The notes under the pieces: generated by a model
Seen by the model: the letters and a program-made list of their open reading frames with translations, nothing else
Told to the model about the DNA's origin: nothing
Databases searched by the model: none
Program-made: the position numbers and the translations under genes
DNA from: Phoenix dactylifera
Lineage: Eukaryota; Streptophyta; Magnoliopsida; Arecales; Arecaceae
DNA: 64,000 bases
Assembly (NCBI RefSeq): GCF_009389715.1
Contig: NC_052392.1
Location: 39,785,668-39,849,667, forward strand
Direction: 5' to 3'
Shown: positions 1,432-33,300 of the stretch, in pieces
Position numbering within the stretch: position 1 is the first letter of the stretch
How the letters are laid out: each line of letters begins with the position of its first letter

Positions 1432-2392
1432 CTCTTCAGCGAAAAGCTCTTCCAACACATCATTTATTTGCCGGTCTTCTGCAACCATTGCTAATGCCAT
1501 GCTCACCAATTCATTTGATAAGACATAATCACTAATTTTTGACATGGACAATAAATTCTTCGTCCTAGGATCCAGAATTTCACTGATTATGACGGATTTA
1601 TCAGATGCTTGCCGCATTTCTCCGATCCAAGAACCTTGGGAGAAACTTCCTCGGTGAACATGGGAGACCATAGCTTCCTTATAAGGAAGTCGTTTTGCCT
1701 ATAACAAAATTTTCAAAGTATGTTTTTGTTGAAATTCAAGATTTAGATATCTAACTGCAGAATAATATCTGAGAAATTCTAGAGCTTTTTCCACAAAAAA
1801 ACTAATGATATTAATGTACAGCTGCACACTTGCACTGGCAATCAAACTCTAAGCCAGACAAACTTTTGACAAAAATTCTATTTCTGAAATTCATCCACAA
1901 ATATTCACAAACAACCGGTTCTATTTTATTGTAACCTCTTATACAACAAATACTATCAATACAATTGACTGCAATTATCTTTTTTTCTATTTCTTGTCTT
2001 ATGGGAACAATATAACTTTTTTTAAAAAACTTTTGGAAACTAAGAAAGTAACATTAGCTAGATTGATACAAACTTCACAGGCATGTGTACAGATTAATAT
2101 AAATATGTAATGGGCGTTTATTTTTGCAACTTGAAGTTTTAGATATATAATCAAATATTAGAGGAAAAGACGAATGGGGAAGGATACAGAGATAGACTTA
2201 CATACAAGGTTCGCTGTACCGGTCGGTACCGGTCGGTACCGAGCGTACCGTACCCGTACCGATGGGTACCGGTATCGGTACACCAATGTCGGTACGGTCG
2301 GTACCGAGCGTACGGTACCGTACCGACACTCGGTACGCCTATACTAGTGCGGCACCGGTACGGGGTTCGGTACCGGTACGGCGAACCTTGCT

Positions 2393-2445
<53 letters not shown>

Positions 2446-5400
2446 GGATGCATATATGTATATATGCATGTATCAATGTATACAAGTCAATGCTTGGATG
2501 CTTACATTAAAAGAAGAATAAGGGGGAGAGGGGAAGAGAGAGAAGTACACTATCTAACAAATAAAATAATAGAATAGCCCTGATATGAGTTTGCAATTTG
2601 TTTAAGTTATTCATTAGGTCTATTTCAGCTTACTGAAGATGTGATACGACCATAGTATGCCGTACCATACCGAATAGGACGGTACCGAACGTACTGCACC
2701 GTATCGGTTTGGTACCGGTGACGTACTGACACTCGTTACGCCAGATGTATCGCATACCATACCGTACCAACACTATGCTAGTGTGGCACTGGTATGGGGT
2801 CCGGTACCGATACGGCGAACTTTGGATAGGACACTTAAATAGATAACCAACAGTGATGGTTTTACACTAAAACACGATGAGACTTCAGCTTAAATTGTTC
2901 CATAACCAAGATCGCTTACGTTAAAAACATAATAAAACTTTGGATGAAGTGTTCAGCACTTGAAACAAAGAGTCTGTTGCATAACACTACAAAAAAGTAC
3001 CAACTGTCAGCACTTTTTGCTAATGTCAGCAGGACACTAAGATGAATGTCCAGCTGTCTTGTGTCATCCAACCTTGTCCAAGTGTCTAAAAGTGCCAACT
3101 GCCAACACGTTCAGAAACCTTAAAATGGAGTGTCCAAGTAACATAACAAATGATAGTACTGCAGAAGAATCCCTGCTGATTCACATGGTCACACTCGAAC
3201 ATTTCTTGACTTAAGCACAGAACTGCAGAAACCAAACAAAATGGAAAGGGGCATATGAAGAAATCATGCATATTTTGCAAAGTGAACTGCTCGGAGAAAG
3301 GTATACCAATCGGAAGAAAACAACGTTACTTTATTAACCTTTGTAACATGCAGAGTGATGACAGAGCAGCCTTGAAGAAATATATTCACACAACAGATAA
3401 TTCCCACTGAAAGCTAATAGAAATTCAATCGTGAACCTGAATATCTCTGATTAGCAGTAATGTTGCAAGAGATCTTGAATCAGCTTGAATTGCAGAGTCT
3501 TCCACAGATTCATCAGCCAAAATCAAAATCTGCATGATGTTTTTCGCAAATGAGATTAATTCAATATACTGAACTACCAATCATGAAAGATTGCAGCAAT
3601 TCCACCTAAGACTTAAAATTAGCAGTTTAATGCACAAACTGATTCAAGTAATTTACAGAATCAAATGATTCTAGTGGGAGGCTCTCCAAGTGCCGGCGGA
3701 TGACAGCATTTCCTTCACGGTTGACCAGAGTTATGTTTTCTAATCGACTGAAGTCCAGACCACCATCAATTAGCTTTTTTTCCCTCTCACTCTCAGCCAC
3801 ATCATTGAACATCCACAATTCTGATTCTGGTGCAAGAAAAGCATCCAATACCTGAAACAGTGTATTTTACGATTGAATTAATGCTGGAATTTGCTTTTGT
3901 ACAACATCTTCGACCTTCAAGTAACCTGGAATAATTTATATTGTCATAACCGAGTCTATATTTAGCTGCAAGAAGAACCATGGAGTATAGTTCAAATCTG
4001 CTAATATATTGAAGCAACAGTAAAAAAACTTGAATAGAAAGTCAAAGTAATTTATTTTATTTTTAAACATTTTCAATTTTTTAACAATTTTTATTGTTGG
4101 TCTAAGGGAACTATTTGGAGTAGGATAAGTGTATAAAGATATACCTTACGTATATATTGAGTTGTTGGAGGCCATAAAAAAGCAATAGATTTAATTTTAC
4201 AAAGATTACATATTATTTATATCAGTTATGAGGCGTTCTGGATTTTTGTAATTCAGAAAAGCTTTTAGGGAAAATGAAGAACAGTCCAAATACAACCCAA
4301 TAATTGGCATTACAATAGCAGAGACATTACCTTATCAGTATATCATGGAATTTAGTCAGCCCAAGGTTGATTTTGCCACATTTGTGTCAACTCATATGTT
4401 AAGAAGCTCAGATAGTTGAGTTCCCACTAGCAATGACCCAGAAAATCTACAAGTAGCAATTTCGCTAATGGCAGGAAAGACGCACTTTTGATTTTCAACA
4501 AGTGAAAATTGTATTTTTTAAAAAAGAATATGAGAACAAATTAAACAATCTCCAAGAGAACTTTTGGAAGATATGCCAACACATGGATAAAACTTCCTCT
4601 GTAAAAAAAATGGGCTAAAAGGAACAGAAGAGAAGATAAACAATGGCAATAAAAGAACATACGATGAAAACACACAGAAATCTGCAATAAGAAAACTAGC
4701 TTGTCTTCAATGAATCTTACATAAGAAATGCAGAACATGTCAAATGCATTTTACAAAAGGTTATCACGGTCATTTATGCAAAGAATATATTATATTATGG
4801 GAGAATTTTGTTTTTGGTTGCTCAGAGGATCTACTATCTCTATGTAACCGAGTTTCTTTGTTGGTTGTTCTGAGTAGTCAGCAAAACAAGCCTCTTATCT
4901 GACACTGAATCAAAAGGTTTCCTGATCTAGGGTGAGCAAACTCCCAGGTAACCACTGAGACACCTATGACCACAGAATTCAAATAAAAAACGGTGCAACT
5001 ATCATATTGAATTCCTTATAATGTTACCATAATCATATCTTCCATATCTCGCCGCCAACCACAAAAAAGTATCCTTTCTGGAGACTTTGGAACAATAAAA
5101 TCTTTGGGAAGATATCCTCTATGGACCTGCATAATTAATAAAAAGAGAGGGTATTAGGGGCTTCGAAGTAAGAACTCACCACTATCATGTCATCTATATC
5201 CCGTCGCCATCCACAAAGTAAAATCTTCTGGGGCTTTCTTGCGGGCCGGACAATGTCTATGTACACTTCATCTTTGACCTGAATGATAAAATTGATTATG
5301 CTTTTGTACGTTCTAGTAGTGGTACATTTTATGTATTTATAGTTTCAGTGGGATCAAATTGACAAGAGTAAATTATAGAATGGACAAGCTAGGTTGCCCT

Positions 5401-8400
5401 CTGTTTATTTTTCTTTCTTAGTCAAACTTGATAATAGGTTTTAATTTTTTTTCTTGCAATCTTGGATCCCTATTGATACAAGAAATCCTTTTGGCATATG
5501 CATTCCTTAGGCATGTAGTTCAGGACCTCATTACGAACAAAGCAAAAAAAAGTATGAGTGAAATTTAATTAGAAATTTAGAATGCAATTGTACCATTGAA
5601 TGTAGGAGGAACACCTATTCCTGGTTCACTAGTTTTCAACAATCTTGGTTAGAAAATAAAGTGTGAAAACTTCTATACACTAATATGGGTCGTAGAACCA
5701 TAGAGTCAGAGTTACATTAAATATGTGCACATATAGATTGAGATTACGGTCGACGGAATCGTCCCGAACTACCTGGTTTGGGGCGCACCGAGCCGTACCG
5801 ATAGTGGACCGAGACGATTCTGGCAACCAAACGAAAAACCGGGATGATGGAGGAGGAGAAGGAAAGAGAGGAAAGAGAGAGAGAGAGAGCAGAAGAGGAA
5901 GGGAAAGGAAGAGAGAGGAAGGGTGGCGGCCTTGCCGACTTTACTTAAAAATTTCGAAAATAAAAAGGGGCCCCCTTCGAGACCCTTATGGAACCAGAGC
6001 AGAGCCCCTCCTCCGCCCCTTTGCGCAGCTCCCTGGCCCTTCGCCGGCCTTCGCCACCCTCTCTCTCCCTCCCTCCCCCTTCTCTCTCTTTCTCCCTCTT
6101 TTTCTCTCTCCAATTCTCCCTCTCCCCCGCCTCCACTACTGTGTCGGTACGGGCCTGGCATAGAACAACACAGGGGCGTACCAACCTGTGCCGCCAGACA
6201 ACCAGTCCGGGCTCCAGTTATGACATAGCAATCCTTGATTGAGATGAAATTTTGCACAACAAACCATTAACAATGCCTTGAAAAAAAGGATGAAGTAATG
6301 ACATCAGGTTAATTGGGGACAAAAGTACTATCCCAACTCCCAAGGATTTGTTCACAACCCTTGACTTAAGTGAATATCCTATCTTCAGAAAGAATAATAT
6401 GGATTCAATAAAAACAATTAACGGCAGAGGATTCAGCGCAGATGCATCTTGGCAGTGTTATATGTTTGTAATTTATAACTGAGTTATATTTTCATAAACC
6501 AATAATAAGCCAGCTTAATTAAATGAACTAGAATGTTGAGGCAGCAATAAGGGCCCATGAGCATATAAAGTTAGAAGCAAAGTCAAGGATATTGAGATGC
6601 ATGCATGCGCTTATACTAGGAGAGAGTGTTGGAAACAAGTGCAGTGGAGGAAACTTAGGAGCCAACCAATCAAGACAGTTTGGACAAGTGCAGCAACAAC
6701 ACCTCCAGCCAGATGGGACCTCTTAATATAGGTTGAATCTCGATGGAGAACCACACCAACACATCGATGGGGTAGTCAAGAAAACTGCAATTCAAATGAA
6801 CTGGTTGTAGATACTTGAACCATAGCCCATTGGGACTTTTAAAATGATGGTCGACACACTATAAATCTCAAATTCTACAATATAGTTTAAATGAATCCGG
6901 GTTAGAAACTTTGTTTCCACTTCATAGAGACTATTGTCATGCGGGCTTAGTGCTTTAGCGGGATAATATTTAGGGCCGGGAACCAGCGGGGAATAGACTG
7001 GTGCCTGATACCATTTTTCTTCTAAGGAATTTCCCATCATTTTAGCTTCCTTCTGCTTGATTGTGCATGCAGCCTTCCAGGAGTCAAAATCCCAGCTAAT
7101 CGAAGGCATGGCATTTGCAGAAGCAAGGTAATTATTCATATGCAATATAAGACCATCAGATGTATAGATAAAAGATGAACACATACAGAGCTTCGCCTGT
7201 TTATATATTGTTACCCACTTGACAGTTCAACTATCCAACAATTCATTGCACAGTACCCCCTCGCCAAGAGGGCCAGGTTGCCAATTTAGTTCCCATCACA
7301 TCCAATAAAGAGTTAATGAGACAGTAACACCGAGTCAGATATTCAAGCACCCACCATAATGCCTTCTTCTCAAGTGATTTTTATATGTTCTACTGCTCTT
7401 TATCACGTCAATGGGATTGATATTGAATTTTTTTTTTCACAAAGTAGTTAACTTATTTGTCCTCCCAATTTTAATACAGTGCATTCTCAACAGAGTATCC
7501 CACTTCCTAAGAATCTATTGCCCAAAAGCATAGCATGAGTAAAATGTTAAGGTGTCCAGAGAAATCTGCCATGACATCCTTGAAAAAAACCAAAAGTAGT
7601 AACAGATGAAAGTATGAATGAATGTATGTGCAGAATATAAAACCAAATGAATCAACTGCCATCACATGTTAGACCTGACATATGCTAGAAGCGCTGAATG
7701 CCTCCATATTATCATGTAATCATGGTCGGTCAGTGTGAAAAGAGAATTGCAATGCCATGTCACCATTTGCAACTTCAGTGGCCCATTACAGTGTGCATTT
7801 AGAGGAATCAAGCTAAATTTAATCGTGTCAAATAACAATTATAAAAATAGTAATCTTCTGTTAACAGTTAAAAATAAACTAACCTGCCATAATATGTATA
7901 ATTGTGATCTGTGAGGTAAGCATGTTGTGGATTAAATGCACAGGCAAGTACAATGATACGGTTACAGACTCGAAAAGTCGAAATGAAAGAAAATTAAGAA
8001 GCATAGATTAAGAGGTTAACTTAGAAGGAAATTAACATAGATTGCAAGGTGAACTTAACCATCTATAAAAGTTCTGCACACTAGGTGAATATTGCCAGAC
8101 CTCCTAAACAATAACAACATTGAAAAGAACTGATTATGACTAAGTTAATAAACAATTAAGGTCCCAGGGTAGGATATTTTGAATATTAAGCCTATGCACA
8201 GATACATAATATTGGGAATCAAATGGATGAATGCAAGCATATGCAATAGCCTGATGAAGAGGCAATAATGTTATGCATTCCACAAGCTAGGGATTGTTAC
8301 ATGATCTAAACTCCAGCAAATTTTCTCGCAGAAAAAATTGAAAGAGTAGCTAATACGCAATCAAAGATGACTTGAAACATTTCTACAAAGTATTGATTAT

Positions 8401-11400
8401 CTAAAAAAGAAAAGGAATTCACCATGGGCAATGTAGTTGGGGCATAACTATCATCATCTTCTGCAATTACAAGTATTTCATCACCCTCCTGAAGAACATA
8501 GGAATCATCAGGATTCAAAATGATCTTTCCTCCAGAAGATGCCACTTTTATTCCACAAGGTATGGCATCAGGAAAGCTGATCAATACATCTTCAAATTGC
8601 ATTTCATCCAACTGGGGCCATCTTTTGATGTAAAACTCACAGTTTTCAAACCCAAGGATATCTTCCCAGATCTGTCAAAACCTATTAAATGATTAGGCTA
8701 GGGAAAATAAAAAGAATCAACCAAAAACAAAATGATATCTTTTGTTCATAAAAGTAAAACAAATCTGACCTAAAAACTACACTTGTGATTAGATCACTAT
8801 ATATTAATTTCAATATGAAGACTCGATTCATTTGTTTCACCTTGTATGGGCCCATTTTTTCATTGCCTTAATTGAGAAAGGCAAAGAGGTACAGCAATGT
8901 TACATCTCAGATAGACAAAAAACTACGATGTTTACAAGCACATGAAATGTTGTTAATAATTACCAAGCAAGATAATGACCTCTTGAAAATGAACATGGCA
9001 AAAGTTCTCTTCTTCACTTCTAAAATCTGAAAGCACACTACTACTTTTGCAATTTCTAACTCACGAGAAGTATCCACAAAAAGGTATGTAAGAGAACACT
9101 ATATTGATATTTAGCTTCGCAACAAACAATCCAATCCAGATGCCTACACTTGTAAGCTAAACGTTCAAGTTAGAATAGCAACTGCGAACAGCATTATTAT
9201 GCAAGTCGGACTCCTATGATGGCAAAAGAAGGCAAAGAAGAAACTAACAATGCGAGAAATACAACTCAATAAATCAGGTTCTGAATATTTGGTGAGCACG
9301 AGAAGGCAGGAAAAAAAAACAAAACCTTCCTTAAAAGGAGACCAAGGAAAGCAAGAAAAGAGCAAGAGAGCATCCTGGAATCCAAAACATCCCTAACCTA
9401 AGCTCAATTGAAAAAGTGAGTATAAACTGGAAGGTAGATCAGCAAACTCAAGGGGATGACTGCATCCAAAGGATGCATTAGGTAAGCAAGAAAACCGCCC
9501 AACTATGCAAGGCAATCCAACCAAAATAAAAAACACAAATGAAGTTTCATGTCAACAAAAGACAGGAAAAAAACAACTATGTTACATTATCTGAAATTGA
9601 CCTGAGCAAGACCTGGTTGTCGAGCACACTGTATCATAAGGCGACCAATCACATCATGAGCAACAACAGTTTCAACAAGATCTCCACCAACTAGTTTAAC
9701 TAGGACTTCATTATCAAGATCGCTCAATTCTACGACTATATGTCCACTTAATCCTTCTTTAACTCCAGTCAAGCTTAAAACAGTTCGCAATGCCCGTGCG
9801 TCACTCTGTAATCATCAGGTGCAAAAGTGATAAGTAACTCTTTAGACATAAATTTCACAATGGTCAGTGGAATAATCTCGAACTGCCCGGTTTGGGGCGT
9901 ATCGAAGGCGAACGGGAAGGGTTCCGGCAACCGAAACGAGAAACCAACAATAAAGGGGGAGGAGAAGGAAGGAGGGAATAAGAGAGAGAGCGGGGGAGGG
10001 AGGAGGAGGGAGGAAGAGGGAGAGGAAAGCAGAGAGAGAGGTGGAGGCCGGCCGGCGGAGGCCAGCCGGCCGTGCAGAGGAGGGGCTCGGCCTCCGGTTT
10101 CTCTATTTCGTTCAAAACAGGGGTCTCAATGGGGATCCCTTTTTAATTTCGACTTCATTTAAAAATCTCGAAATTAAAAAATGGCCCCTCCAGGACCCCT
10201 GTTTCGAACGAAATAGGGAAACCGGAGGCGGAGCCCCTCCTCCGTGCGGCTCGCCGGCCTCCGCCACCCTCCTCTCTCCCCCTTCTCTCTCTCTTCTTCT
10301 TTCCCGTCCTCCCTCTCCCCTGCCCCCTCTACTGTGTCAGTATTGGCCCGGCACGGAACGGCACAGGGGCATACCAACCTGTGCCGCCGGGCAACCGGTC
10401 CGGGCCCCGGTTCCGGCACAATAATCCTTGGCCAAAACAATACCTGGTCTGCATTTCCATCTTCAGCTAAGACCACCACTGCACGAGCCTTCGAAACAGA
10501 AACCTATTTAATAATAGACACTTGATTCAGCAAACAAATTTGCATAGCAGAAAATGAAAATCATTAATCAGCATCATAAATTTCAACTAAGTATAGTCAT
10601 ATTGTTTTAAAGGAAAAAATTTTCATCAACTATTGAAATTGACGATAGAAATTGAGGTCAAGACTTCAAGAAAATAGGTAGACCTTTTTCAGATCTGCAA
10701 GAATTAGAGGACTTCCACTTCTGCATATGACAGATGTTCCCTTAAAGTCAAACTCCATTTTGGAAATATCTAGTTCCATTTCCTCCTTGTCCCTCTCAGC
10801 CATCACCACTACAGTGCCACCACCCAAACTCTCATTGGCTATTGCAAGTTGATTCAGTAAAGAACCCTGCTCTCCCATTAGAAGCATTAAATTATGAAAA
10901 TAGCAATGTTAGCAGATATACATACAAATGCCATCTACTAATAATTTTACTTACAGCTTTAGCACAAAAAATCAACTATCAAATGCCATATGCATGCCTT
11001 GTGCATAGGCTTTAAATAAAAATTGAAGAGATCCAAATCATGACATTTCCCATCTTTTAAGAAGAAAGATGTGAAAATCTTAAACTATCGTTCTTGGAAA
11101 ATAGCTATATAGTCATCTGTAACAACCACATGCAGGGGCAAAATCTCAGTGCCAGAGAGAAGCAAAAAGCATGTTATCGGAAATATTTTGGTAGATTGTA
11201 AAGTAAAAGATTTGGTGGGTCGGACTGCTGATTAACAATCATTTCATGTAGGTTTCTGGACACGGTGCATGGTTCCTGAATAATAGAGATCATAAAATGA
11301 AGTAAATGACACTGCAAAAGATTCCATATTAATAAACATATAGATACAAAATCATATAGACACTTGTCAATAAATAAGTAGATCACCTATAAATGTAAAC

Positions 11401-12584: not shown

Positions 12585-15500
12585 TGCATGTGTGAGCGTG
12601 CCTGATTTCTAGTGAACTTTCTTGTTTCAGAATGCTGGTATCTTGTTTAAGAACTAGTAAGATTGCTGTTAACATTGCTCACAACAAGAATGTCATAAAT
12701 TTTTTTGGCTCTCAGAGTTATTTAAACTCCACAGAAAATGAAACAGTGTTAATGTATGATGTTTCAGAGAACTGCCGGTAGTATTTAGTACTCACAAAAG
12801 AAGGGAAAATAACTATATAAAAGATGCAAGAAAAGTAAAATCTAAATTTACCAATTTATCACTCCAGCCAAGGATTAGTGTGTGATTTTTCTCTATGACT
12901 TTACTTCTGCCCTTCCTCAAAGAATCAAACTTCTCAGAGATCGTGTCAGAGACAAGCCCAAGCATCATGGCAAATATTAACATTCCACCAAAACTGATAG
13001 AAACTGAAACTAACTTGGGGCCAATACCAACTGAATTTGCATGATTGCCTGAATCGGCAACATAAGTCCAAGATAACCACAGACAGTCTGCTAAGCTATC
13101 ATCTGTCACACCAAAGAGTGCCAGACCACCAAGACATATAAGAAGAAAAGTTGCAAGAAATAAAGCCAACGGCTTAGCATATGGTTGCACTGACAAAAAT
13201 ACATCGACTCGGTATGCCAACTCCTTGCTAAGAGAAACCGCCTCAGTATCTGCTGGCATCCTTAGCCTTGAAATGTTGTCAATGTGTTTAAAAGTAATGA
13301 GTGCAATGGACAGCACAGCAAGTGAAAAGAACAGAGCAGAATTTTTTAGTTTCCTATTTAGTATATGATCACCCTCTTGTGATACAATATTGCTGCTTTC
13401 CAATGGAGGAAATATATCACATGCCTGTAGTCTTGCATTGAGCATGGACAGCTGGTCCTGTAAAACAAAAACATATCAAGTAAAAACTATCTGTGAATAG
13501 ACCAAATGACATTTTCGCATCTATATATTTTTTTCTCATACTGGATAACAATCAGGTGTAAGAATGGCATCTCTGGAAGTTACCTAAATAAATTTTATAA
13601 AAAAAATTAGCTTCCCTTCCCTTTTCCTGTGGGAAAATGATTCATGAAAACATGCAAGCACAAGAATGATTCCATTTATAGTATTGAATAAAAGCCATTT
13701 AAGTACATCAAAAATTCATAATGCATTTGTTCAAAAAATTATAGAAGATTCCTTTGCTCAGTTGAATGGCTGCAAAGCCTTCATTTTACTGTCAATTTGA
13801 ACTCTCTATTGGAAAATTTTGAGGATGAACAGATTAAGCTGAATTCAGATGGCTCTCTCTAGTTATTGCTTCAGGATGGTGGGTTTTGATAGGACCATAA
13901 AAGTGATATTGTTTTTAAGTTTGGTGCCTCCTCTCCACAACATATTCATAAGTTAAAAGAAGCACTTGCTGATCCAAAGTAATGCTCTTTGCCAGGCATT
14001 TCTAGTTCTTGCATACAATCAGAGTTTTTCTTTTCTTTCTTTCTTTCTTTTTTTGTTTTTTTTAGTATAATGGTGAAAGCATTAGAACAACCAAAATCAA
14101 ATACTTGGAAACCAACACCGTCAAGATTTGAATCTAGAAACACCCCCCTGCATGGAGGAGGTGTACCAGTTTGCTTGCATAAGTTTGGAGATGAACTTGA
14201 GCATTCCATGGAATACATAGGCCAAAGTATAAGTCCATGTAAGATGCTGAGTGCAAACTATCTCAAATATGGTAATTGATTTATGGAATGCATAGGTTCC
14301 AAATCAGTCATATTTGGAGAGAGGAAAACAAATCTATATGTAAGGTTTGCCGTCTCGGTATCAGATCCCGTACTAGTACCATTCTATTACAATATCAATA
14401 TGCGGTACAGTATGAGATGGCGGAACATACTGATACACCGGTATGGTACAATACACTCGGTACGTACATTGCTGACTGGTTCGGCAAACCTTGTACGTAT
14501 ATTTTCTTGCAGGCAACTACTACGCCTGCTGTGGATTTGAAATATCATATGGTTCAACCCCCATTTTCCAACATAACAATTAAGCTGAAGGAAATCCTGG
14601 ATGAGGTTAATGACATTGTATATACTGGCTTTAAGGAGGGTTGTGTTTATCCTTTTTAGCAACACTGATCTTTTAAGTTATTTTTTTTGAATAAATTGTA
14701 TTTATAACTGAATGATTGATGTTCCACATATTTGCACTTAGACTACAACCATCTAAAGTGGGGGAGAGAAAACCAGGACTTTGGTTTTCCAGAATGTAAG
14801 AACCATGGCAACAATCTAGAGGCCAGAAAGTGAAGCTAATTATTGGTATAGCCAATTCCATATCAAATCATCATGGAAAGGGAAATGTAAGTACATTCAA
14901 GTTCACAAGAACACAACAATATATTTATGCAATAAAAACATCAAGATTTCTCATTCCTTGATATCCATCTAAGCCATGAGGATCCATCATGCCATATCTA
15001 TTTCAGTTGTTATGGCAATTAATCGCATTTGATAAACTAGACATAAGGAACATAGCCAGTAGATGTTGTTACTTTACCTGCAAAACTATAAGTTGGTTAT
15101 GTAATGAAAAGTTTTTGTGAAGGAGAGAAGTGAAGCAGGTGACGATAATCTGCAAGAAACCAGGTTGCATGTAAAACAACATAAATATAATTTGTAAATA
15201 CTGCAGTTAACATATATTTGGCAAATGATGAAAAATAATATGTTTCAACGTAGTTAGGAGATTAATCAATCCAACATAATTCACTCTCCACAAGATCACA
15301 GAAAACTTATCATGAGTTGAACCATAATTTCGACTACACTGAATATTCAATAAATTCTGCAACATGCACAAAATTCTGCAGATAAATCTAAGAAAAAAGG
15401 AGCAAATTTCAGGTCATGTTATTGAATCATAAAGTCAAGTAGATGATTAATCAGTCAAGTGGGAAAATAGAAAACTAAACATTAGCAAATTCGGTACAAA

Positions 15501-15868: not shown

Positions 15869-16413
15869 ACAAAACATAAGAAAACAATTGGCAAGAAGTA
15901 GAAAAGGAGTTGATGGTTAAAAAGATCAATTTGCACGAAATTTCTTCTACTAACCGCCACGGAAACCGCCATGGGCCACCGAAACCTGACCCTGCCGTCG
16001 AAGAAGACCCCGGCGCCCTTCCTGACCGCCGGCTTATAATCCCGGGCGGCCTGGGGGCCGTCCGTTCTTGCCGTCTTGTCTGGCGTCGGCGCATCGAAGC
16101 AGACCTTCCGGCGGACCCCGGCGTACCTGGAATCCCTCCGGCGGATCGACGACGGAAGCGGCGGCGAGGAGGTGGTGGTGACGGCGCCTCCGCCGGCGGC
16201 GGCCGGGAGGGAGGAGAAGGTGGAGCCAGGGGCCGCGCGCTGCGACCTGGGCTCGCGGAGGAAGGGCTTGGAGGCCCTGGTGGTGGAGGGGAAGACGGAG
16301 GGCCTTCTAGGGTTTAGGGTTCGGGCGGAGGGGGCGGTGTGGACGAAGGGGGCCGAGGGGAAGAACCAGTCCCGGTGGACGGGCGGAGGGGACGGCTCCG
16401 AGTCCAGGGACAT
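1432..16413 (-). CDS. CASTOR: CASTOR-type nuclear-envelope cation channel, 3' end outside window
   Basis: The family forms K+-permeable channels in the root nuclear envelope that support symbiotic Ca2+ spiking. Coding exons in order: 15955-16413, 15078-15149, 12852-13457, 10684-10866, 10444-10503, 9602-9805, 8423-8671, then 5180-5278 or 5028-5126, then 3657-3851, 3437-3529, 1432-1698. All are GT-AG and every junction is phase 0. They encode about 829 residues; rice CASTOR is about 890, so roughly 60-70 C-terminal residues lie left of the window. The start at 16413 matches the family N-terminus (MSLDSEP...HRDWFFP); an in-frame ATG seven codons upstream is less likely. Visible: Pro/Ser-rich N-terminus, first TM about 148-165 split by intron 1, further TMs about 217-233, 268-293 and 325-348, filter ADSGNHA about 311-317, and two RCK domains (HTLILGWSDKL; ILFCGWRRD). 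The filter has serine, the common form, not the alanine of Medicago DMI1. CASTOR rather than POLLUX is chosen from near-identity to rice CASTOR as I recall it. Confidence 0.95.
2205..2390. mobile_element. GGTACC-rich MITE copy A, in CASTOR intron 10
   Basis: Inverted ends CAAGGTTCGCTGTACCGG and CCGGTACGGCGAACCTTG enclose a body made largely of GGTACC/GTACCG words. The 8-bp direct repeat CTTACATA sits immediately on both sides (2197-2204 and 2391-2398), a target duplication of the length typical for hAT elements. There is no coding capacity, so it is non-autonomous. A (TA)n tract begins in the right duplication. Confidence 0.8.
2395..2442. repeat. (TA)n microsatellite
   Basis: About 48 bp of uninterrupted TA dinucleotides directly after MITE copy A. 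The tyrosine/isoleucine frames read through it are artefacts of the repeat. Confidence 0.95.
2651..2824. mobile_element. GGTACC-rich MITE copy B, in CASTOR intron 10
   Basis: Starts CATAGTATGCCGTACC and ends GATACGGCGAACTTTG. Its right half is clearly homologous to copies A and E (shared GTGTGGCACTGGTA and GGGGTCCGGTACCG). Flanks GATACGAC and GATAGGAC match at 7 of 8 positions, a slightly diverged 8-bp target duplication. It is non-coding. Confidence 0.75.
3852..5027 (-). other. CASTOR intron 8, no embedded feature
   Basis: AT-rich intron between exon 8A and exon 9. I see no other exon, RNA gene or recognisable element in it. Confidence 0.6.
5028..5126 (-). other. CASTOR: CASTOR exon 8A (canonical version)
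   Basis: 99 nt, 33 codons, phase 0 at both ends. It reads from VHRGYLPKDFIVPKSPER into ILFCGWRRDMEDMIM, matching the linker and first beta-strand of the second RCK domain in known CASTOR proteins. The acceptor is GCAG|GTC and the donor ATG|GTAA. It lies 53 nt downstream of a homologous exon of the same length. Confidence 0.92.
5180..5278 (-). other. CASTOR: CASTOR exon 8B (tandem homologous alternative exon)
   Basis: 99 nt, 33 codons, fully open and phase 0, with acceptor TTCAG|GTC and a near-consensus donor GTG|GTGAGT. It ends ILLCGWRRDIDDMIV, aligned with ILFCGWRRDMEDMIM of exon 8A. I count 13 of 33 residues identical overall and 12 of the last 18. The N-terminal halves differ almost completely (KDEVYIDIVRPARKPQK here). 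Splicing 8B to exon 9 is as much in frame as 8A to exon 9. Expression is not shown by sequence, but open frame, matched length and good splice sites argue that it is used. Confidence 0.85.
5755..6230. mobile_element. Foldback element G (purine/pyrimidine arms) in CASTOR intron 7
   Basis: The left part (CCCGAACTACCTGGTTTGGG) is followed by a purine-rich arm of GA/GGAA words (about 5843-5930). After a short AT-rich centre comes a longer pyrimidine-rich arm (about 6050-6133) that complements it. The ends match foldback element H at 9878-10418. The left arm lacks a segment still present on the right, so the copy is asymmetric. Several long overlapping reading frames cross it on both strands; they are low-complexity and not credible genes. 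Confidence 0.65.
6792..7184 (-). other. Unrecognised 130-codon open frame in CASTOR intron 7
   Basis: An ATG-to-stop frame on the CASTOR sense strand, outside any low-complexity repeat. Composition looks protein-like (for example KWYQAPVYSPLVPGPKYYP), but I recognise no family, signal peptide or membrane segment. Joining it to the flanking exons is not needed, because the canonical CASTOR protein is continuous without it. It may be a decayed gene or retrotransposon fragment, or chance. Confidence 0.25.
8672..9601 (-). other. CASTOR intron 6, nothing recognised
   Basis: AT-rich intron with no element or additional exon that I can support. Confidence 0.6.
9878..10418. mobile_element. Long foldback element H filling CASTOR intron 5
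   Basis: Two arms of roughly 250 bp are near-complementary around a short AT-rich loop at about 10152-10167. For example, ACAGGGGTCTC at about 10118 pairs with the segment around 10190, and the GGCCGGC-rich block near 10050 pairs with the block near 10250. The flanks share AATAATC (9871-9877 and 10420-10426). Removing the insert and one copy would leave an intron of about 89 nt. The element ends about 20-25 nt from the exon 5 donor and about 70 nt from the exon 6 acceptor. Confidence 0.8.
10867..12851 (-). other. CASTOR intron 3
   Basis: AT-rich intron containing a compound (CT)n(GT)n microsatellite at about 12551-12586. No other recognisable feature. Confidence 0.6.
12551..12586. repeat. 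Compound (CT)n(GT)n microsatellite
   Basis: A CT run passes directly into a GT run inside CASTOR intron 3. Confidence 0.9.
14341..14493. mobile_element. GGTACC-rich MITE copy C, in CASTOR intron 2
   Basis: Ends AAGGTTTGCCG and CGGCAAACCTT are perfect inverted repeats. The body carries GGTA/GTACC words but is more diverged than copies A and E. The flanks do not show a convincing 8-bp duplication, consistent with an older insertion. Confidence 0.7.
15844..15868. repeat. (TA)n microsatellite in CASTOR intron 1
   Basis: About 25 bp of TA repeats between exon 2 and exon 1 of CASTOR. Confidence 0.9.
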
Positions 16414-20420: not shown

Positions 20421-23400
20421 ATGGAGATGGAAATCGAAATGGGAGAGGCGACCGAGGGCCGGGGAGGAGGAGGAGGAGCGGAAGCTGTGCTTAGCCTGGC
20501 CGCGGGATCCTCGATCTCCATACGATACCACTCTCTCTTCGGATCTCATGATGATATGCTCCTTCTCGAGGTCGATGAGAAGCTCCTCCCCGATGTTCTC
20601 CACCACCGGTAAATCTTTACCCTCTCCTCTCTCAACGCTTCTCATCACGTTAACGCTCTTTTTCCTAATCTCCTTTGGATCTTAATTGCTTGACGTCGGT
20701 TTGTGCCTCTTTTTTAGGTTTGAAGCCCCTCTTTTTGTAGTTAGGGTTCTGGAAACTGAGTCTTTCATGTTCTCTTTGAAAGATAACGGATATGAAATTC
20801 GATTGACTGACATCTGGCCCCGAGATGGGACTGCTGATCGATTCGATACTCTTTTTTCAGGGGTCAATCGAAGCCGAGAATGTATTGAATTGAGCTTGTT
20901 GGTCACATACGCTTGTGGCTTTTCTCAATTGCAAAGGAAACCCATAGGATTTATCTAAAAAGCCTTTTTTTGTTTGCTGGGTCATTTTACATTGTCATTG
21001 AAATCTATGTACTTAACTGTTTAGATATGTTTTAATGATTAATTGTTGAGATTTGGACTAACTATTTACTCTGCAATGACATGGAAGGGATTCTTTATGT
21101 TCTGCTTTTTTTTATTTCAGATTTTGGATTTTGAGGATCATTGATTGTTCCTTTGCACATGCATTAATTCTAAGTTTTTCATCATTCCGATGATAGGATT
21201 TTTTTCACCTAGCACCAATCAAGTCTGTCCTTACCTTTTTGGTTCACTAAAGGTTTTGTTTCCTTAGACACTTTTTTTTTTGTTCATTTATGGACACGGC
21301 TGTAATAACAAATAGGAACGTAGATTTTGATCTTAGGGATCTGTGGCATCATACAAGAAAATTAAAATTTGTTCATGATTCTCATGAAAATGATGGTCAA
21401 TTTTCTACCCAAGCTGGCCTGTTGGGCATAATTATTTAAGACTTACGTAATTCACCCACATTACTTGGCAAAGGAATTATCATTTAAGATAACTGGGAGA
21501 GGACTCTTGCTTAACCAAAAGAACATTAAAACTTGTGTGAATATCACTCGCACTCTACACACTTTTTGTGTCAATACTTCATCTTTGGCTTGGGTACTAT
21601 GGTGAACAAGTAACATCGATATATAAATTCAGAAGGGGAAAAAATAACATGGGAGACTTTTAAGTGAGCACTAACATTCTAAACATGTGCATCGAACTCT
21701 GCTACTAGAGAAAAGCTGACTCATCAGGGATTGTCTTTCAAGTTGTTTCTCTGCTGAACTATAATGGGTTCTGTTACACATTGCCCATTTTCCTCCAAAC
21801 TTAGTTCATGCATATAGATAGGAAACAGAAGGTACATAAGTGTACTGCCGAACCCATAAAAGGGAGACAGTCGGTCTTAAAGACATGGGAAATATCTAAA
21901 AGGCTGGCAAGAAATATACCTTAAGTTGGAGTGATCTCACAGTAACAATATCATCCCCATCAAAACAAAGACATTGTTTAGACTAGAACCAGAATGGTAA
22001 TGTAGTCCTTAATGCAACCAGAGTAACATACAAGAAAGGAAAATTTAGACATGAGAACTCAACAAAAGGAGATAGACCCCATCAAAACAACCCAACATCA
22101 AACATGATGCTCCTGCTCCTGCCCAAATTTATAAGCAGCAGACTGCTGAATAGCCTAGCCTGAAGCCAGGTTCCTTCATATTTTCATGAGCTTAAACTGC
22201 ATAACAAGATGTTTAATATCCCTTGATACCAAGTGGCCTTTTAGGTCTCATGACAGGCTTTTATTTTGTTCAAGATAAATTGGTTAAAAAATATAGCACC
22301 AATTTGAGGGCTAATGTCAGGTTAAGTGCTTGTTAAATGTCCTGAATCTTCGGTGGATCATAACTTGATCCTTGAAGCTGACCTGATATAGGTAGGACAG
22401 CACTTGTTGGTTATGCTACATGGTATCAAGGACTTCTAATCATTTTTAAGCTTTCCTCACCATGACACTTCACATCATCTTTTGAGTACCATATCTTGAA
22501 TCTTGATGTCCCTAACCATTTCCTTGATTTTACCTTTTCAATATGGCAAGATGCTTTTCTTTGACAAATTTCCTCACCAATCTGCTTTGTGGTTAAATCT
22601 ATTAACTTCTTGCATACTTATTAGGCAAATAAGTACTTGTTTTTCTATTTCTCTTTTAAGTTGCAATTACTTGATTTTCCTTTATTTAGGGTGACCATTC
22701 GAGGGCAACCTGATGAGGAAGCTGTGCTTTGCACTCCTTCTTCAACCTATGCCATGAAGTTTGTAGGCACATCCAACTCTGTATTATTGATACCTGCAGT
22801 AGAGCCAACTCCTTCAAGTTCAAATGACGCATGCAACAGTAGCGACACAAACAACACAGCAGTTCCTGATGCAGTGGCATCTGTCATCAAAGCGGCACCA
22901 GGGTATATGGAGCTAATCCAAGCGGCCCCCAGGCTTGATAAATTGAAATCCCTCCTTAATGAGAGGCCTTACAGACTGGAGGAAGATCTAGAAAATGATA
23001 CGTGGTGCATGAGAGGCCTGTACAGATGGCAGGATCTGGTTGAGGAGATTCAGGCTAGTGATCAGGAGCTGAGGGATGGATTGAGGTCCCTCTCAGCTGT
23101 TGAGGTTAATGGGTACTGGAGGATAGTTGATGGAAAAACCATAGATGAAATATTAAACATGATCTTGAACAACTCTGTCTTGCACGAATGGCCTCTAAAT
23201 GCACTTTCAGAAGATGAAGTGGTTTCTGTCTTAGAAGCTGACGGGTTCCCTAGCAGAATTGTACTCCACTGCCTTGAAACATTTGGAAGTAAGATGGAGA
23301 CTTCAGGATGCAATTTGTGGAGCTTAGATGAAAAGCGGGTCTGTTTGCATTTTGCTGTACGAATTTTGGGTGGTGGGAAGATGAAGTTGGAGATTTTCAT

Positions 23401-23819
23401 GGAAAAGTGGATGCGAAGCATTCCTTCAGGAATGCGTGCAGATTTAAAAATGCTTGAGGGAGAAGTGTTGTATGAAAAACTTGGTATAGAAAACTGGATC
23501 CATGCCTTCAGCATCTCGGATCTTCCATCAGCTCCGGCTGAGCGTTTTGCAGCTCTGTTTCGAGAGCGGCCGAAGTGGGAATGGAAAGATTTGGAGCCCT
23601 ATGTCAGGTTGCTATGGCTCCTCACCAGATTTTCATCCCGTTGTTTCTCCTGTTTGCATTTTGGCATCTACTCTTATTTTCTTGGGAGCCTGACAAAACT
23701 TTATTTCTTTTTCTAGGGACTTGCGTGTTCCAGGCCTCTCCTCCGAAGGTTTGCTCATCAAGTATACTCGAAGAACGCAGCCAAATGCAAATGTTGAACC
23801 AATTTTCAGTGCGAGATAG
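20421..23819 (+). CDS. DCC1: Sister chromatid cohesion protein DCC1 (Ctf18-RFC subunit)
   Basis: DCC1 binds CTF18 and CTF8 to form the alternative clamp loader that acts on PCNA and helps establish cohesion at replication forks. Exons are 20421-20608, 22690-23607 and 23717-23819, all GT-AG. Junction 1 is phase 2 (CG|G) and junction 2 restores AG|G. The total is 402 residues, normal for the family. Family landmarks: an N-terminal block SISIRYHSLFGSHDDMLLLEVDEKLLPDVLHHR joined to VTIRGQPDEEAVLCT (quoted here as two exons' ends), then TYAMKFVGTSNSVLLIP. The C-terminal half contains WPLNALSEDEVVSVLEADGF and ends GLLIKYTRRTQPN. The ATG follows a TATA-like box and gives the acidic MEMEIEMGE start. 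Head-to-head with CASTOR at 4 kb. A second, phase-compatible exon may end the protein early. Confidence 0.95.
20718..20958 (+). other. Possible alternative last exon of DCC1
   Basis: After acceptor CTCTTTTTTTAG at 20717, exon 1 (phase 2) would continue in frame for 79 codons to a TAA at 20956-20958, without an intervening stop. The predicted tail starts FEAPLFVVRVLETES and is not similar to canonical DCC1. The product would have about 142 residues and lack most of the protein. The intron would be 109 nt against 2,081 nt for the canonical one. This may be a chance frame; only RNA data can tell. Confidence 0.4.
20959..22689 (+). other. Remainder of DCC1 intron 1
   Basis: AT-rich intron; no transposon ends, RNA gene or further exon recognised. 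Confidence 0.5.
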
Positions 23820-30342: not shown

Positions 30343-33300
30343 CTATTTGAACGGTCTTCTTCCGACGCCGGCGGGCATAGAGACGGTGGAGTCGACGCTC
30401 AACCCTCCGACCGAGAGCGTCTTCTTGTGCTTACCGGAGCCCATCCTCTGCGAGCCGGCGTCCTTGGTCGCCGCGAAGAGCGACCCCTGCAGCGACCCGA
30501 TGCTCTGGCCGAACCGGAACGAGAAGCGGGGCTTCCCCTCGTGATCCGTGGCCAAGGCGCGGGATTTCGCCTTGGCGGAGGCGGTGGGGGTCATGTAGTT
30601 GGGTAGCGTGAAGGCCGAGCAGCTGGTGAGGCTCTCGTCGTCCCGGAGGGCGGCGGCGGCGGCGGCGGAGGGGTGGTGGTCCGACCGGCGGGAGGAGGTG
30701 GAGAAGGAGGGCTTGAGCTTGGATGCGGAGGCGGGGCGAGGGGTGCCGCGGCTGAAGGGGCGGGGATGGGGGTGGGCGGAGGAGGAGGAGGAGGGGGTGC
30801 AGGGGGTGAAGGGGGTGAAGGCAATGGGGTTGAGGCGAGAGGCCGGGGTTTGGGGACGGGGGTCGCCGGAGAGGCGGCGTTCGAGGTAGTTCCACCACCA
30901 GGGGAAGCCACCCATGCGGATGTCGGTGAGGACGGCGTGGGCCGACTTGGGCGACACGTTCAATAGCTGGGGTCAATAAAACCAGTTGGTTAGTTGGTCA
31001 ATAAAACCAGCTATCATGATTCTGGAAGGTCAAGTTACCCGCCATCGTCCATGCAGCGAGCGATGGTAAGGGTAAACAAAGTTGATGAGAAGTTATATTT
31101 TTTTTTCATTTGAGTTGAATTAGAGAGGTCTAGCCTTTTAATCATGGTAGCTGTTAGAGATCCTTATAAAATATATAGCATATGTAGAGTGGCCATTAGG
31201 GTTGACAATCAAACGAGGTCGGACAAGATACAAAATGGGTCGGATGCATGATAGTTCAAAAATCTGTGGATCCAAATCTGACATGTGTATCAAACAGGTC
31301 AAAAATGTAGATCCGAGTCTGACCAATTTATTAACCTATTAATCTATCTCGCTCTATAACATATTGAAATAAGTTAAATAGATTAAATAGTTAAGCATTG
31401 CCGCTCCTATTTACCATAGGAAAAAAATTAGAAAATTGGAAGCATTGCCACCGTTGTGCCATTTGATATGACCTAACAGGCTCCTCTTATCTGCCAATGA
31501 AGTTATAGCATATCAACTCCTAAAACTAGTTTTTATCTGAGGCATGAATATCTCGTGACCATCAAGCCTCTGCACTGTAATAGGAGAATGTTTAATACAT
31601 GTCCAACTATTCTAGCCTTCGTGACAAACTTTGTTAGTTTAGCTGGTTGGCACCTCTCTCTCCTCAAGGAGGGCTGAACCTTAAGGGAGGTTCAAGATCA
31701 TGCGATTTTTTTTTTGCACCTAAAATAATTTGGCTACCAACGCATGCCTATAGAAGAATGAGGGTAATGACTGGAAACTCAAAGGGCTAGATCCATGGCC
31801 TCTCATACTTCATTTTAAGTATTAAATTCAACACTAATTTGATTGTACCAGGAAGCAAGGGATCATACCTGATGAGAGTAAGCATAGGCCAGAGCTCTTT
31901 CCCTCTTGATGACTGCCTCCACCTTTCTTCTCATTCTTGCATCAACCTCCCCCTTTGTCAGCACGCTATCATTCCACTCCCCATGGGCTTCTGCCTCCGA
32001 CTGCATGGCATACACCATCAGTTAGGTCCAGAAACAAAGATCACTTCCAAACAGCAGCAAAGATATGATCACAGAACCATATTACAACTGTCAGCTTAGC
32101 ATGTAATTACTTTATCCATGTCATACTTCAGCTAGACTCCATTAAAGAGTCAAGCAACAGATCAAGAAAAGCTTGTTTTTTTTCTTTCTTTTCTTTTCTG
32201 GTTGAATAAAAAGGTTTAAATTGTATATAGTAACAAATAGAAAGCTCAGATATTCAGTTTCTTTTACCCGGTGAGTCATGCTCCATTTGCCGAAGCTGCT
32301 TTCAAATTCCTTGTCACTCTTTCGTGGGGTATGGTGCTGTTGGATGCTCCTGCTTTCCATCATCTGCAGCCTCCTTGCACGTATTTGTGATTGGACTCTT
32401 ACGAGCATCTGCATGCATTTCATTGCATTCATGGTCTGACGCTTCACACTCTGCCCTCTCATCACACCTTGAAGTCTTATTAATCCTTTGAGCGCTCGGT
32501 AGTTCCTTCTAGCCTGCACCATCGAAGCAAAACTTATAAAGGTTCTCTTCATTGCACATTAATGGAGATCTTGCGCTGAATTCGATGGCTGAATTGCTTG
32601 TAGATTTTGGTTATGCATGCAATTGTGAAACTTGGTCAAAAATAGTCCATGAAACTCTTTTGCAGTGATGCTAAAAGTTTTTGTTACATAGGTATCATCA
32701 TCCCTATAAGCTATCAGTGAGAAAAAAAGTGCCCATTCTGTAAACAAACCATGTGTTCATTCTGTTGAGAGTTGTTATTGGACAAGAACATCAGATTTAT
32801 CCATACAACTCCTGAAATGGGCTCTTCGTTACATTGCATACATCAGCTCATCATCAAAATCATCATGATGTGAAAATCTAAAGCAATCATTCGGCATGTT
32901 TCGACTTAATGGCAAAGAGGTTTGAATGCAAACTGCAAAGCAACCTATTGCAAACCTTCTCTAGTTGTTCAATAAATAGTTTACACAGAAGACTTCCTGG
33001 ATGTATTTTATTTCTAATGCCTGTCTATCACAAAATCATATACTTTGTGATTGTGAGTATGCATGTAACTAATGTATTGAAGGATGTATGAAATATGTCA
33101 GATTTATGCTCATCATAAACCCTAGACAAGGCTCACATGTCCGTCACTCTATGTTAAAAGAAAGAAGTGATTTTTGGTGTGTTTTTTGTTAGAGTTTTAA
33201 TTTTTTTAAAAAAAATTAAATTTTTGTATCCTCTAAATTTTAGTTGTTTAAAATGCTTTAAAATACTTTTTTGTCGGACATCTCTTGTGGAAAAGTTGTA

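Follow-up and report, generated by a model that had tools for sequence, protein, structure and literature searches.

The 64-kb stretch of Phoenix dactylifera DNA analyzed here (64,000 nt, hereafter the window) contains most of a CASTOR gene in which the position of the eighth exon is occupied by two adjacent exons of identical length, 8B and 8A. The locus therefore raises the question of whether a core symbiosis channel is made in two forms, with each transcript using one of these exons in place of the other, and if so, what would keep both from being joined together. The exon pair is real and ancient. Its best explanation is, in our judgment, an ancient and sterically enforced mutually exclusive pair in CASTOR, a reading that we regard as probable.

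The CASTOR gene and its two versions of exon 8

CASTOR lies on the minus strand and extends from position 16413 to beyond base 1 of the window. Its exons were placed by splice sites and similarity, which yielded eleven canonical coding exons (including 8A) plus one extra (Table 1), while similarity placed the last coding exon, which ends in VVIAEKE, immediately beyond the window on the same contig (L003). Within the window, the coding exons so placed showed no stop or frame break, and the encoded protein contains the Castor_Poll_mid domain (PF06241, E 5.5e-43). Its C-terminal 480 residues score 930 bits against Lotus CASTOR (PDB 6o6j) versus 800 against DMI1. Apart from the gap between 8B and 8A, the CASTOR introns in the window measure 127 to 3,144 nt.

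Table 1. Positions of CASTOR features in the window
Feature	Position	Strand	Remark
First coding exon (ATG at 16413)	15955..16413	minus	splice sites and similarity
Exon 7, upstream (RCK1 end and beginning of linker); joins 8A or 8B	8423..8671	minus	
Intron 5' of 8B, 3,144 nt	5279..8422	minus	
Exon 8B (alternative; 33 aa, VKDEVYIDIVRPARKPQKILLCGWRRDIDDMIV)	5180..5278	minus	homologous exon in 221/221 proteins among the matches listed
53-nt gap (mini-intron), 8B donor to 8A acceptor	5127..5179	minus	probably too short for 8B-8A splicing
Best candidate 8A branch site, CTAAT	5153..5157	minus	consensus only; branch A 26 nt from 8B donor
Exon 8A (canonical; 33 aa, VHRGYLPKDFIVPKSPERILFCGWRRDMEDMIM)	5028..5126	minus	28/33 residues identical to Lotus CASTOR (PDB 6o6j)
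Intron 3' of 8A, 1,176 nt	3852..5027	minus	
Exon 9, downstream (RCK2 N-lobe); joins 8A or 8B	3657..3851	minus	
Exon 11	1432..1698	minus	

The initial annotation had described 8B and 8A as tandem, open, phase-0 exons of 99 nt with GT-AG sites on the minus strand, which proved exact to the base. Their 53-nt separation and 13 of 33 identical residues were likewise confirmed by the coordinates and an ungapped alignment, in which 19 of the 33 positions are positive (BLOSUM62 score 65) and 50 of the 99 nucleotides agree. Each exon is free of stops, preceded by AG, and followed by GT, and the pair thus combines equal length, compatible splice sites and phase, and homology, as is characteristic of homologous mutually exclusive exons. 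Among the 85 open AG-99nt-GT segments found on both strands of the 64-kb window, 8A and 8B are the two best scorers against 8A, in that order, and the third-ranked segment scores only 6. Since 8B scores 65 against 6 for the next segment, it is a duplicated exon rather than a chance resemblance; the same set holds no third copy. The reading frame stays intact with 8A, 8B, both, or neither (829, 829, 862, and 796 aa, respectively, with the last exon left out), and retention of the 53-nt gap leads to a stop after 14 codons. The 5' splice site of 8B matches the consensus at seven of nine positions, which is the joint best in the gene together with exon 7, while the 8A donor matches at six. RNA folding around the exon pair was no more stable than that of shuffled sequences (z 0.56) and thus gives no hint of an RNA structure governing the choice between 8A and 8B. 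Scans of the 64-kb window for Rfam families (at gathering scores) and tRNAs gave no match.

Several other sequences in the window were noted by eye or from their reading frames. Two CASTOR introns hold G+C-rich insertions (5740-6240 and 9850-10440) with a common stretch around GGCGGCACAGGTTGGTA, and these resemble copies of a single mobile element. Repeat-rich stretches resembling CGGTACCG also occur in CASTOR introns (approximately 2200-2440, 2640-2830, and 14380-14500), one of them adjoining a long TA run. Beyond CASTOR, a 363-codon open frame on the plus strand (22625-23716) contains VNGYWRIVDGKTIDEILNMILNN, the wording of which recalls, as we read it, the cohesion protein DCC1. On the minus strand, one of the open frames at 30343-32558 includes a stretch of 20 residues resembling an IQ motif and may belong to an IQD protein.

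Occurrence and conservation of exon 8B in seed plants

The initial annotation had suggested looking for the second exon in CASTOR of other angiosperms and, from the sequence, had judged the pair to be old and retained. We ran three protein searches centered on 8B and took the best 120 of 289, 120 of 171, and 120 of 213 matches below the E-value limit. Their union comprises 221 different proteins (the matches listed), which represent at least 112 genera by their names. It should be kept in mind that these matches come from a clustered database, include several rows per genus that are not independent as well as three nameless rows, and, having been found with an 8B query, give neither an 8A:8B ratio nor a view of 8A-only forms per species. 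As expected of such searches, 8B is carried by all 221. Its occurrence among the matches listed extends from monocots to gymnosperms, the latter including Cryptomeria and probably Ginkgo (P0034, which we take to be Ginkgo from its label Gb_17779). The second exon is thus present well outside palms, and since flowering plants and gymnosperms both carry it, the pair is older than the sequence alone could tell. Neither Fabaceae nor Brassicaceae appears by name among the 221 matches listed, which is not proof of loss. Both groups may nevertheless have lost 8B, and such a loss would account for its having been overlooked so far; CASTOR has been studied mostly in legumes.

Within the 96 proteins among the matches listed that were compared for both exons, the mean identity between species is 77.6% for 8B and 77.2% for 8A, while 8A and 8B of one and the same protein share 39.6%. 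Every 8B was at least as close to some other 8B as to any 8A. Consequently, 8A and 8B had diverged before flowering plants separated from Cryptomeria and Ginkgo, provided that both gymnosperm models are right; it should be added that, in each exon, only 1 to 4 residues place these two proteins nearer to CASTOR than to POLLUX. In a tree built from 33 selected peptides, 8B stood apart from 8A plus POLLUX/DMI1 (0.999), and gymnosperm 8A grouped with palm POLLUX (0.815). Because of the latter grouping, the duplication may even have preceded the CASTOR/POLLUX split, although 33 residues are too few for dating. POLLUX of the same genome (L002, G000:C1:34996103-34999165) has a single exon 8, VRRGFLPNAPCPRKYPEKILFCGWRRDIDDMIM, and no 8B-like copy was found elsewhere in the 3 kb around it, which include the whole upstream intron.

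The CGW motif of 8B varies in a few groups. Over the 221 matches listed, its first position is C in 201, T in 15, S in 3, and V in 2, while its last position is W in 212, M in 8, and R in 1. TGW was found in Solanum, Nicotiana, and Capsicum (P0060, P0065, P0076, P0107), CGM in Aegilops, Triticum, and Alopecurus (P0066, P0068, P0089, P0097), SGW in Coptis and Ranunculus (P0080, P0120), VGW in Xanthoceras (P0001, P0090), and CGR in Morella (P0086).

Use of 8B, the short gap, and competing explanations

How 8B is connected in other species bears directly upon its use. The proposal that 8B can stand in place of 8A was borne out in relatives, as 112 of the 221 matches listed contain only 8B and join it to exon 9, with these 8B-only coding forms coming from at least 67 named genera. 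Two of these models (P0129 and P0207, source label 'lgn'), encoded without interruption by contigs of 2,667 and 2,939 bp, are 723 and 805 aa long. Both have the order exon 7-8B-9, and they are evidently assembled mRNA or cDNA, since a gene with such introns would be too large for these contigs. By extension, we infer that 8B is also used in Phoenix dactylifera. Both exons are present in 102 of the 221 matches listed and 8A is absent from 119, and a separate scan gave the same totals. In 90, 8B is joined directly to 8A in frame. The gap is kept in frame in 6, where it encodes 18 residues in Phragmites, Eragrostis, Populus, Cucurbita, and Andrographis and 22 in Papaver; retention is thus rare among two-exon models (6 of 102 among the matches listed). 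A further 5 of the 221 (P0025, P0039, P0052, P0089, and P0212) leave 8B, either internally or past its end, and resume at an acceptor inside 8A or at some comparable inner point, as if a gene finder or the spliceosome were dodging a very short gap. Of the remaining irregular forms among the matches listed, P0001 repeats 8B ahead of 8A, 6 continue past 8B into the gap or further with no recognizable 8A, and 1 ends at 8B.

The claim that transcripts contain 8A or 8B but never both fared less uniformly. Model names containing 'isoform X' presumably denote NCBI evidence-based models and hence imply RNA evidence. Among the matches listed, 57 rows bear such names, a count that leaves out six rows with copied or similar labels (4 8B-only, 2 joined) and places P0182 and P0183 (cut-off names, both 8B-only) outside. 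The 48 of these 57 that are 8B-only favor the claim, while the 9 with both exons, like the 102 of 221 overall, speak against it. Of those 9, 4 keep a 54-nt gap, 1 uses an inner acceptor, and 4 are joined (Nicotiana twice, Solanum, and Salvia); in view of these joins, certain lineages may have a longer or a spliceable gap. Among the matches listed, 'isoform X' rows show a lower share of direct joins (4, versus 47 8B-only) than the remaining rows do (85 versus 64; Fisher p 1.2e-10, with P0208 [8B-only] and P0214 [joined] left out of the table and the p value only a guide because the rows are non-independent). The excess of joins outside 'isoform X' may reflect gene finders forcing both exons into one model, or some joins may be real; many joined models among the matches listed come from annotation pipelines whose evidence is unseen. 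Overall, we consider it likely but unproven that each transcript carries one exon and never both, and the argument for mutual exclusion would be built upon protein models and two assembled transcripts rather than mapped reads.

The length of the gap offers a possible reason for such exclusivity. In plants, introns shorter than ~70 nt are poorly spliced. The gap is 53 nt in the window; among the matches listed, the models that retain it show 54 nt for five further genera and 66 nt for Papaver. The best-fitting candidate branch site, CTAAT, leaves 27 nt between its A (A26) and the 8A acceptor, and further YTNAY matches place the A at 11, 41, and 45 nt (A11, A41, A45), such that every candidate lies ≤45 nt from the 8B donor. 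Animal work has proposed ~50 nt between 5' splice site and branch point as the threshold for joint occupation (PMC7969005, available text), and with a 53-nt intron and all YTNAY candidates within that distance, the palm pair has the layout of the short-intron type, the branch point itself being a candidate only. VSSYFEAPN, which the palm gap encodes in its first nine codons, recurs in P0125, a protein with the same 8B as Sorghum. Codons 8-9 of the gap encode PN, SN, or LI in 10 of the 12 relatives among the matches listed whose models extend into it; Erythranthe has these letters one codon later, and Dioscorea stops too early. At the nucleotide level, these letters would allow CTAAY or CTNAT where the palm has CTAAT, with which they are only consistent.

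According to our preferred explanation, the eighth CASTOR exon would have been duplicated in tandem long ago, and the spliceosome would now link exon 7 to either 8B or 8A. A U1 snRNP on the 8B donor and a U2 snRNP on the 8A branch point would not both find room, and 8B would seldom be spliced to 8A because the short gap could not hold the two together. Were both exons nonetheless recognized, the gap would stay in the mRNA and the palm protein would be truncated. Steric exclusion fits a 53-nt gap, and we infer it as the cause; the branch-point position and any tissue control are likewise predictions.

Two other explanations also assume that 8B enters transcripts. It could be a cassette exon that is added to 8A as a 33-residue linker insertion after the short gap is spliced out, as the 90 of 221 in-frame 8B-8A joins among the matches listed, four 'isoform X' rows included, would suggest. 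We find this unlikely, as a 53-nt gap is below what plants splice well, only 4 of the 57 'isoform X' rows are joined, and 11 two-exon models keep the gap or use an acceptor inside 8A (all among the matches listed); in addition, a doubled RCK2 first strand and GWRRD loop would presumably be hard to fold. Alternatively, inclusion of 8B might be mainly unproductive, with the retained gap supplying a stop codon that lowers the amount of CASTOR protein. Gap retention in the palm does end after 14 codons, P0125 (38 member sequences, 21 contigs) runs from exon 7 through 8B into the gap and then a stop, and P0137 and P0143 stop soon after 8B. A poison exon needs no conservation of its protein sequence, however, whereas that of 8B equals that of 8A; nor does it need a gap that is open when retained, as is found in six genera, and 8B-only coding forms occur in at least 67 named genera (both among the matches listed). 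Accordingly, we hold a mainly unproductive role to be improbable.

It is more improbable by far that 8B is a dead and roleless leftover of the duplication in the palm lineage. 8B is open, has a 5' splice site matching at 7/9, the joint best in the gene with exon 7, and is conserved in at least 112 genera among the matches listed. Mutually exclusive use of 8B and 8A remains our preferred explanation.

Predicted effect on the channel and comparison with known systems

Mutually exclusive splicing would give two mRNAs and two channels that are alike except for the final portion of the linker and the opening strand and loop of RCK2. In Lotus CASTOR, the RCK1-RCK2 linker comprises residues 553-580 and RCK2 begins at 581 (PMC6697748, available text). 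Counted from the stated D553/D554, exon 8 corresponds to Lotus residues 565-597 and hence covers most of the linker plus R589/R590, two arginines that act as a latch on the Ca(I) site. The same source describes H463 as stacking between R589 and R590 and a salt bridge between the Ca(I) ligand D442 and R590, and reports that the D442A mutation leaves the channel leaky when Ca2+ is low and eliminates nodulation. In an unanchored scan of the matches listed, 8B retains R589 in 220, R590 in 221, and D591 in 220 of 221 proteins, while 8A retains R589 and R590 in 102 of 102 and D591 in 101 of 102. The linker part (565-582) is largely unlike between the two exons, and their commonest residues differ at F585L, M592I, E593D, and M597V. 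Because the arginines are kept and the linker part differs, an exchange of 8A and 8B would spare the latch and alter what holds it. As the swapped segment adjoins the Ca(I) latch, the two channels probably differ in Ca2+-dependent gating, which, judged from the location of the segment in the Lotus structure, would be the likeliest consequence of the swap, with partner binding or stability as alternative effects. An AlphaFold model of an 8B-only protein (P0083 with 44 relatives) was set aside (mean pLDDT 52, pTM 0.27).

If our reading holds, the pair would be unusual for its kingdom, age, and place. Its retention from gymnosperms to grasses, within the Ca2+-sensing gating ring of a core symbiosis channel, would offer a handle on how nuclear Ca2+ spiking is tuned and would let short-intron exclusion in plants be tested on a natural example. 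Work with a single CASTOR cDNA in species with both exons would cover only one of two channel forms. Gymnosperms and flowering plants separated roughly 300 million years ago or more. As a tentative idea that we would not yet favor, seed plants might have kept a splicing switch for ~300 million years or longer that sets the response of a nuclear Ca2+ channel through exchange of a linker and strand beside the Ca(I) latch, such that nuclear Ca2+ signals differ between tissues or partners.

Sequence databases already hold 8B forms, for instance under 'isoform X2'. In the open PMC literature, with subscription journals outside its scope, we found neither a description of the CASTOR exon pair nor a paper on the ion channel CASTOR and splicing. 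For crop DMI1 homologues, numerous predicted splice variants are listed in supplements (PMC9114929), and neither a duplicated exon nor a mutually exclusive one is named in the available text of that paper; PMC5006320 and PMC8890496 have no bearing on the pair. Lotus CASTOR and Medicago DMI1 (PDB 6o6j and 7vm8; PMC6697748) belong to the same channel family and share its domain order, with an 8A-type segment in the solved chains, and the available main text of that study contains no word starting with splic, isoform, or exon. Plants have few mutually exclusive exons; in a 2026 study of the Arabidopsis proteome, they account for 11 of 2,442 splicing events (PMC13136898, available text).

The nearest parallels come from animals. 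As set out in the available text of Pillmann et al. 2011 (PMC3228551), homologous mutually exclusive exons have equal length, conserved splice sites and frame, and sequence similarity, as does the CASTOR pair; the examples given there are animal (Dscam, myosin, and the Drosophila X chromosome), whereas the CASTOR pair is from plants and its exclusivity would be judged from protein models and two assembled transcripts. Exons 4a and 4b of vertebrate OGDH (PMC7969005, available text) are likewise ancient duplicates in a Ca2+-regulated protein, and there they are mutually exclusive. The human branch points are 25-41 nt from the first donor, below the ~50-nt limit, as the CASTOR candidates (≤45 nt) would be, and a restriction of intron size over long evolution is a further likeness. 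In contrast to CASTOR, OGDH is an animal mitochondrial enzyme, its intron measures 118-131 nt with distant branch points in birds and mammals, and a difference in Ca2+ sensitivity is reported as shown for OGDH, while for CASTOR it is predicted from the position of the segment. Provided that our reading is right, the CASTOR pair would work like these animal cases of steric exclusion across a short intron.
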